A DNA stretch of 64,000 nt, taken from contig OZ007569.1 in the NCBI GenBank assembly GCA_963931925.1, positions 27,900,024 to 27,964,023 on the forward strand. The letters run 5' to 3'. The translations under genes were made by a program, and so were the position numbers. Within the stretch, counting starts at the first letter, position 1. Each line of letters begins with the position of its first letter. The notes beneath the pieces are model-generated. The model made no database searches. It was given only the letters and a program-made list of their open reading frames with translations, and was not told the origin of the DNA. This document shows, one piece after another, positions 35,201-38,200 of the stretch. The DNA is from Onchidella celtica. Its lineage: Eukaryota; Mollusca; Gastropoda; Systellommatophora; Onchidiidae.

Positions 35201-38200
35201 GTGCTCCTGCGAAATTTCGAATTTTATTTCGCCTTTCCTGGGAAGTTCCAAACCCGTATGTTTCGTTCTCCCATGGGTGCGCATGCTAGGCCGCCCTGTC
35301 AAAAACAAACCCATGTGTGTGTGTGTGTAGGCTCAGCCGCCGTGCCAAAACAAATCTTTGCGAATGCGCAGACTCAACTGCCGTGTCAAAAAACAACAAT
35401 AACAACAAAAAAAGGCCGTGCCATGTAGGGGAGGATGCCGTGCAAAGCATCACAGTCATCATCACAATTTTGAGTGACATATGTGAAACAACAAATCGGT
35501 ATTATGTTTATGTTACCTATGTCACATGTCTTGTTGGCCACCTCTGTCTGAATGGTGGATAATACATCGAAGTTATTCACGCTGAAGACGTCATTGTGCA
35601 CAGAGGCTATGTTTTCCAGCTCCAGCTGATCAATGTTAGTGCCAATCCCAATGGACAACAATAGGGCCCCCGTATCCTTTAGTAATTTGGCTTGTTCAAG
35701 TGTCCTATCCGGTAGGGTGGACTGTCCATCTGTAAAGACTATAGCAATTTTGGGCACACCAGGACGTGCGCCATGGGCTGCTGTAATTCACTGTGACACA
35801 CAACAACGTTTACCTTCTTAAATTTGCCGACGACTCTGCTATTTTAGGCCTTTTACCTAACTCTGGCCACGAATATTCTAACATTGTACAATCCTTTCAT
35901 TGTTGGTGTAATAACAACTATCTTCTACTGAATGTTAAGAAAACAAAAGAGCTTGTTTTTGACTTTAGGAAAAATAACAACGATCCTGTTTGCCCTCTTA
36001 CTATCAACAATGAAGAGGTTGAAATTGTCACAGAGGCCAAATATCTTGGCATTACTATTGATTCATTGCTTAACTGGCATGCGCATGTAACATATGTATA
36101 CAAGAAAGCCAACCAGCGCATGTATTTCCTCAGAAAGCTCCGCTTTTTAAAAGTTAGCAAAAGCATTCTGAAAATATTTTACACCATGGCTATTCAGAGC
36201 GTTTTGATGTATGGAGTTGTCTGTTGGGGAGGAAACATCTTACAAAAAGATAAAAATAAGATCAATAATTTAATTAAAAAAGCATCCAAAATTTGTATCT
36301 GTGATCTGCCATATTTTGATGAGCTGTACACTGGTGCTTGTATTAAAAAAGCTAATATTATTATAAATGACCCCCAACATCCCCTGAACAAGGAATATAT
36401 AAGATCTGTAAGAAGTTTAAGGCTGTTGTCAAAGAAAACTAAAACTGAGCGCTACTTTAAATCGTTTATTCCATCACCAACTAGGATGTTACAATAATGT
36501 CGTCATCTTGATTGTAATCTGTGCACAGTTGAATTATGTCCTGCGTGTCAGGTCAATGTGTTTTAGTTAGGGAAGCATATTGTGTGCACTGTTAATTTTG
36601 TTAATTTAGTTAATTTATCAGTGTGTGTGTATATATGTGTGTGTGCGCGCTATGTATCATACTTTCTGCTTCTGTAACTGTATTGTTATGTATTCAATGA
36701 TCAAAACAAATTTCCTTGTACAAGGACGAATAAAATTTATCTTATCTTATCTTATCTTATCTTATCTTATCTCTTGCAATTTGCAGAGCAGTGTTTGTGT
36801 ATGTGTTCTGTGCAAGGTAAGGTATGTTTTGTATACCCTGTGGAAAAACAAAGACAAAATGAAGAAATGAGACAGACCTTGGCCAAAAATGCCTAAAGAT
36901 ATGGACCGGTACCGGGGAAAAACATTGTCTCTGCGACACATCGATTGTCAGTCTTTCTGTTCGCAAGATTAACCTACATCACTGATCGTGTCGATGGAAG
37001 TCCATGTATTTGGGTCTGAACACTTTCTTCAAAGCCCTCATATTGAACCGAAAATGATGGAAACGAAGGGCGGCAGGGAAAGAAGAGAGGAAATACATAG
37101 AAAACGCAAACAAAGTAGAAAAAGGAGGAACATGGCACAGGAATACAAGTGTGAAGGAAGGAAGAGGATAAAACTAAAACAAAAAACAGATATTACATAT
37201 AATTAGTTCCATATTTCGCCCACTTAAAATGACAGGGCTCTATCTCCATTTTTTGGCTGAACTGAGTTACCACAACACACTACTTCTACGGGTCTTCTCC
37301 ATAGTGTATTAAAGTATCAACCAGATTCGGTGTGTAATTAATTGTAAGTATTACTAACAAGAAAACATTTGTTTGCTCTAAAGCTATGATCACATGAAAC
37401 TTCAGTCCTCGATTTCTCAAAAGTTTACGGAAGAGAGTCATAAGTCATTCTAAAGGGACGATTTGTCATTGTGCTGGATTGCATTTTGTCCTGCTAAACG
37501 TTGTTTAAATCACCTGGATTGCTGTGGCCACTTTGTCATGTCACTGGATATCTTTCACTCTCTCTCCCTCTCTGAATCTGAATGTCTTCTGTCTGCCTAT
37601 CTGTCTGTCTGTCTGCCTTTCAACTTTAGTGTCTATGCTGGTTTGTCGTGTGTTCTGAACAGTCGCGTTCTTTGTCAGTGATGCGTGAAACAAAAATCAC
37701 CGACGGACAAATAAGAGGAATATTTTACTATTTCTGTTTGCTATCAGTGCATGATGAACAGCCCTGCAAACATAAGTGCCGTTTTGGAAAATTGTGCATT
37801 GTTGCCCAAATAAAAAAAAAAAATATATTGACGTTTTACAATGCATGCACCTGTCAGCAAAAAAATATTTAAAAAAACTGAATGTGAACGGCTTATCTGT
37901 GCTGTCTGATTGTTATAATCAAGAAAGAAAAGGAAAATAGAACAGCCAAAAATAGAAAGTAGTGGCACAGAGCTACCCACCTACCTACCTATCTACCTAT
38001 TTGTCCGTCCGTCCGTATGTCTGTCTGAGTGTCTGTCTGTCTGCCTGTCTGTCTGTCTATCGGTACGGCCTGGCGCATCTGTGTTTTGTTAACAGTGTTG
38101 GGCTTGCCCTCAAGAAGAATATATAAAAAACATTAATGTCAGGGCAACTTTGGCTTAAAGCTCACTTGACCACTGTGTTAGCATGTTGATTCACGTTGCA

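Follow-up and report, generated by a model that had tools for sequence, protein, structure and literature searches.

A young antisense LINE within a coding exon of a VWA-domain array in Onchidella celtica

Insertion of a retrotransposon into a coding exon is a well-known kind of mutation, of which the locus described here is a further example. Among mouse germ-line mutations, exonic insertions of L1, B1 and B2 elements cause truncation or exon skipping, as set out in the accessible part of PMC6466679. In the Frem1 mutant heb, an L1 in exon 17 truncates transcript and protein. A B1 in exon 4 of Atcay (ji) results in truncation with rare exon skipping, and a B2 in exon 3 of Ndufs4 (fky) in skipping and premature termination (PMC6466679, same part). 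What these mutants share with the present locus is a retrotransposon inside an exon. However, their transcripts were studied, whereas those discussed here are predicted, and the insertion here belongs to another LINE family whose copies mostly lack target-site duplications.

The titin mutant mdm, also from the mouse, carries a LINE insertion associated with exon skipping and an 83-residue deletion (accessible part of PMC9482285). It resembles the present case in that a LINE lies in the gene for a long multi-domain protein, but skipping was reported in titin, while here it exists on paper only and requires two exons. In cancer cases, an L1 within or beside MET exon 14 appears to cause skipping of that exon (accessible part of PMC12934576). 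There too the insertion is in or next to an exon, but the element is a human L1 and a single exon is involved. The gene and the insertion described below were not found among the listed titles and abstract openings of open-licence papers, which says little.

The explanation preferred here, and held with good confidence, is that a young LINE lies antisense in exon A of the eleventh domain of a VWA array, forming a truncating, recent and probably segregating allele. No new mechanism seems to be at work, and the event has the look of a recent mutation of an ordinary sort. The locus is a useful example since exon, tail and target loss are legible nearly at single-base precision, and also since the LINE family has apparently amplified recently in this genome.

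The interrupted exon of domain 11

The window is the whole 64,000-nucleotide stretch that was analysed (27900024-27964023 of contig OZ007569.1), and the array was read with 100 kb flanks added to it. Eighteen VWA domains, all of the same orientation, extend between 92.7 kb and 8.1 kb on the window scale; their strand, spacing and phase point to a single gene. Each domain unit consists of an exon B followed by an exon A. Exon B comprises about 213 nt of domain and a lead of 2 to 23 nt, counted to the nearest candidate acceptor; that of domain 11 has a second possible acceptor 21 bp upstream. Sites that fit phase 1-0-1 were found at the starts and ends of exon B and at the ends of exon A in 18 of 18 domains, several places having more than one candidate, and exon A starts were checked in 17 of the 18 (domain 18 was left out). 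In domains 4 to 9 (60968-59898 and 56047-55233 in the window; domains 4 to 7 are upstream of it) exon A is interrupted by an extra intron that follows the SIG/GIG position, and exon A of domain 17 (12141-11213) is split at a different place. The exons around the insertion, and the parts of the LINE, are as follows.

51755 to 52100, minus strand: exon A of domain 10, 346 bp
40643 to 40863, minus strand: exon B of domain 11, 221 bp, phase 1 to 0, open, with a DxSxS motif
36772 to 36837, minus strand: 5' remnant of exon A of domain 11, 22 residues, with an AG acceptor at 36838-36839
35787 to 36771, plus strand: LINE copy, 5'-truncated, its 5' start placed by sibling copies
36737 to 36771, plus strand: LINE tail, a perfect (TTATC)7 of seven exact units
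35787 to 36497, plus strand: open C-terminal part of the reverse transcriptase frame, 236 codons plus stop
35517 to 35786, minus strand: 3' remnant of VWA exon A of domain 11, its reading ending in NKTCDI, with a GT donor at 35515-35516
31606 to 31826, minus strand: exon B of the next domain, domain 12
29548 to 29893, minus strand: exon A of domain 12, 346 bp

An earlier note on this DNA had placed a LINE within a VWA coding exon. This was confirmed, the minus-strand exon 36837..35517 being interrupted by a plus-strand LINE at 35787..36771. The domain that it called D4 is indeed the fourth when counted down from the window's upper end, but is the 11th of 18 in the full array. Frame and splice sites are intact on both sides of the split, the acceptor sequence directly before 36837 being tttgtttttccacag. 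On the minus strand the 5' remnant gives way to (GATAA)n, complementary to the TTATC tail. The 3' remnant matched Pfam VWA at E = 5.1e-13 (50.1 bits against the PF00092 gathering score of 23.8) and exon B of domain 11 reached 55.1 bits against the same cut-off; the 22-residue 5' remnant alone gave no VWA match. A control on spanning open reading frames was non-discriminating: the joined flanks of this site gave the longest, at 169 codons, but two other sites gave 160 and 156.

Beyond the LINE the VWA reading picks up again at 35784, and the two parts of exon A counted to that position amount to 66 + 268 = 334 nt. The same note had set this against a family length of 346 bp and deduced that 12 bp are missing. 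The family length stands, as intact single-exon copies of exon A in the array measure 346 nt in seven of nine cases (343 and 349 nt in the other two), and the figure of 12 bp is good to within one codon. A loss of 8 to 10 nt is the better estimate because the LINE starts at TTCACTG (35787), which leaves 35785-35786 as surviving exon bases, and because two bases at the tail junction are ambiguous. Longer sibling copies of the LINE have GATTTCACTG where the window has GTAATTCACTG; at the 3' edge of the LINE, which is ambiguous by one to three bases, the TC of the exon and the TC of the tail are indistinguishable. No target-site duplication was found at the insertion in domain 11.

Among solved structures, domain 10 is closest in sequence to collagen VI alpha-3 and Proximal thread matrix protein 1, with E = 1.9e-112 against 9han_C (whole sequence, several domains) and E = 2.4e-45 against 4cn8_A. 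Proximal thread matrix protein 1 is a mussel protein. Because these are the best matches of domain 10, an extracellular matrix or adhesive role is suggested for the product, which as predicted here is an array of 18 VWA domains.

The LINE family and the age of the insertion

An RVT_1 domain, together with a 5' end truncated at differing points and a 3' end that all copies share, identifies the element as a LINE (non-LTR retrotransposon). True 5' breakpoints in 30 copies fall at 28 distinct points, while the 3' end and TTATC tails are shared (43 copies measured). The tail of the window copy has 7.2 TTATC units, within a range of 2.8 to 10.8 among these 43, its own included. RVT_1 was matched at E = 5.2e-30 by L008, a family member longer than the window copy, and at E = 0.0068 by the window copy itself, which has only the C-terminal part of the reverse transcriptase and scores 16.6 bits (cut-off 29.6). 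Given the RVT_1 match of the longer copy and the VWA match of the 3' remnant, a VWA exon split by a LINE is not a chance reading. Over the 736 residues of L008, Pfam reported RVT_1 and ALKBH8_N (PF09004) and nothing else, so that no endonuclease domain was among the matches to this stretch. The ALKBH8_N label presumably derives from retroelement sequence and is not read here as a sign of a repair enzyme; no literature on this label was found. No relatives of the LINE were confirmed in viral and prokaryote contigs, and no solved structure matched the LINE fragment up to E = 0.1.

Insertion without a clear target-site duplication seems to be the habit of this family, because few of the 30 copies with readable ends, the window's included, have anchored repeats. 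A target-site repeat of ≥ 6 bp was lacking in 29 of 30; the anchored repeat is 7 bp in one (L025), 5 bp in four and ≤ 4 bp in the others, these being raw counts without a chance control. For this count 17 of 47 copies were dropped, four with a 5' end past the fetched stretch and 13 whose flank was still LINE. By its tail type the LINE is a candidate member of the L2/CR1 group. For the L2 clade, a short tandem 3' repeat is said to be needed for retrotransposition (accessible part of PMC2653535), and a short tandem tail is what L2/CR1-type LINEs and the present family have in common. Target-site duplications often flank a SINE that is partnered with an L2 LINE (PMC2653535, same part), whereas the copies here are mostly without them.

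The suggestion of the earlier note that the event looks recent was borne out. In a search of the genome (1.14 Gb, 43 contigs), protein identity was ≥ 99% in all 150 scored matches, the window copy included, these being the best 150 of 13397 first-look candidates; the family appears to have amplified recently in Onchidella celtica. Compared over 951 bp with 46 sampled copies, the window copy has one private base, at LINE position 691, which is absent from all 46, and another base common to a single copy. These two events amount to 0.2% (95% interval 0.03 to 0.76%). By the same count, at most two differences of their own are seen in 27 of 47 copies, that of the window among them. The 46 comparison copies were picked from the best-scoring matches and are thus biased toward young copies.

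The private base also bears on the assembly. Repeats with many near-identical copies commonly cause false joins, and a LINE copy could have been misjoined into the exon. Such a misjoin is very improbable here, because the copy has its own 5' truncation point and its own tail end within one exon, the exon halves keep their order, orientation and near-complete length, and the base at position 691 distinguishes the copy from those sampled.

Nothing in domain 11 points to decay, whether before the insertion or since. By leave-one-out profile scores exon B of this domain ranks 7th among 18 and the 3' portion of exon A 4th among 14 (domains 6, 7, 17 and 18 were left out of the exon A set), and the 236-codon frame of the LINE is open, in agreement with what had been claimed for both exon halves and the LINE reading frame. 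The motifs of the VWA metal site (MIDAS) are DxSxS (or DxTxS), encoded by exon B, and xDG, encoded by exon A. Domain 11 has LDGSAS and TDG at these places. The exon B motif occurs in 16 of 18 domains, being missing in domains 9 (exon B at 59224-59009) and 18 (exon B at 9604-9389). Of the 14 domains examined for the exon A motif, 13 have TDG and domain 16 has MDG.

The state of these sequences also weighs on whether the insertion is fixed, with domain 11 a retired pseudo-domain in the species. The insertion is in the only assembly, and an empty copy, sought in that one assembly following the earlier suggestion of an empty-allele check, was not found; the broken 3' remnant has one DNA match in the genome, namely itself, and thus no second copy. 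From a single assembly, however, fixed and segregating insertions are not separable, and neither the exon halves nor exon B have decayed, while the LINE copy has two changes at most. Fixation is accordingly held to be improbable. A divergence of about 0.2% is in or below the range of within-species diversity in many marine invertebrates. For this reason the allele is probably segregating, and it is probably a recent mutation rather than a fixed feature of the species. In the Anolis lizard, LINE insertion polymorphisms are mostly at low frequency (accessible part of PMC5389967).

A protein search with exon A of domain 10 gave at least 126 matches at E ≤ 0.001 (the best 150 of 227 candidates were scored). 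The best-scoring of the scored matches outside the array has 44% identity over 107 residues, and shorter, weaker ones reach 55%. Other dense clusters of VWA-like exons lie at G000:C17:26126277-26237292 and G000:C15:23185666-23536542, with about 32 to 55% identity to the query exon.

Predicted transcripts of the interrupted gene

On the preferred explanation, a young multi-copy non-LTR retrotransposon would have entered exon A of domain 11 via target-primed reverse transcription, a mechanism suggested by the 5' truncation and the TTATC tail. It would have inserted opposite to the direction of the gene, 5'-truncated, with the loss of about 8 to 12 bp of target. Splicing would keep the native acceptor and donor, so that most transcripts would contain an enlarged exon A of 1321 nt. 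In this predicted isoform, translation would stop after ARDKIR, at the fifth codon past the junction.

36757 to 36759, minus strand: TAA, first in-frame stop on inclusion, codon 215 of the inclusion isoform, within the LINE tail

Transcripts with this stop may be degraded, or may yield a protein that ends some ten and a half domains into the array. The native acceptor of exon A scores 14.7 (median 10.1 over the gene's 35 acceptors) and the native donor 7.1 (median 7.9 over 32 donors), by splice matrices that were trained without the domain 11 sites, while the comparison sites were partly scored on their own training set. Skipping exon A of domain 11 alone is predicted to shift the frame, with a stop in the next exon B, and skipping its exon B alone is predicted to give a stop as well. 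The LINE allele therefore most likely truncates, as the native sites are good, the single skips are out of frame and a rescue needs two exons; truncation of the protein is probable on these predictions.

Two double skips are in frame. The claim that co-skipping of exons A and B removes exactly one domain in frame holds in the predicted isoform. The second drops exon A of domain 11 with exon B of domain 12, fusing exon B of domain 11 to exon A of domain 12 in a predicted full-length hybrid domain. The insertion might thus be tolerated by exon skipping, either pair being dropped to give a 17-domain protein. Both double skips are open, phase 1-0-1 makes the domains symmetric units with the expected sites in all 18 wherever readable, and the number of units in the array varies. 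But joint loss of two exons would be required, each with adequate splice sites, and exon A skipped alone leads to a frameshift and a stop, which leaves this outcome, the main rival reading, unlikely. Recognition of a large exon (1321 nt) between introns of about 3.7 to 3.8 kb could fall, and lower recognition would favour skipping. It is more doubtful that the gene is splice-tolerant to the extent that the LINE allele is retained in the population, by dropping of a unit or by the hybrid of exons B11 and A12. In that event a retrotransposon insertion would alter domain number without loss of the protein. If it occurs, the in-frame double skip would also be a neat natural experiment on whether insertion mutations are buffered by modular, phase-symmetric arrays of domains.

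On paper, cryptic sites offer other routes, which complicate the verdict of truncation. Seven cryptic acceptors within the 3' remnant could be joined to exon B in an open frame; the best of them scores 3.5, which falls between the minimum (1.5) and the 10th percentile (5.7) of the gene's real acceptors. From exon B through an internal cryptic exon to the next exon B there are 23 open choices, counted without pair scores. Removal of the LINE as an intron was found in no GT-AG pair that is in frame and open when the first base of the exon is excluded; including it gives seven GT-AG pairs, each leaving an exon of 1 nt, which is unlikely. A further 23 GC-AG pairs are open inside the enlarged exon. 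The twenty intronisation pairs that were read all rejoin at acceptors within the 3' remnant, and because of this they lose part of the VWA domain. The cryptic routes that were read would thus fail to restore a whole VWA domain, and intronisation is judged unlikely. Premature polyadenylation was also considered and rejected: ATTAAA, the one signal counted, occurs four times in 3268 bases of L009 against 5.7 expected.

Variation elsewhere in the array

Tandem duplication accounts for domain units 5 and 6, which align over some 3.5 kb, one piece at 94.0% and the other at 90.5% identity; because of this the number of units in the array can be said to change. These units are at about 75700-67160, outside the window (L014, L015), and their exon B proteins are identical. 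The LINE target in domain 11 is the AR(E)xAFT loop. Domain 14 (21219-20884) and domain 7 (about 66122, L014) each have a one-codon gap in this loop, which is therefore tolerant of length change.

At 13739-13689 on the minus strand, just past exon A of domain 16, there is an exon A-like fragment (tblastn E = 0.11), perhaps an intronic partial duplicate. The region 5951-7041 contains an array of a 54-bp unit at 6010-6993 (17.5 copies), with AAC/ACC-like triplets and several stop-free frames.
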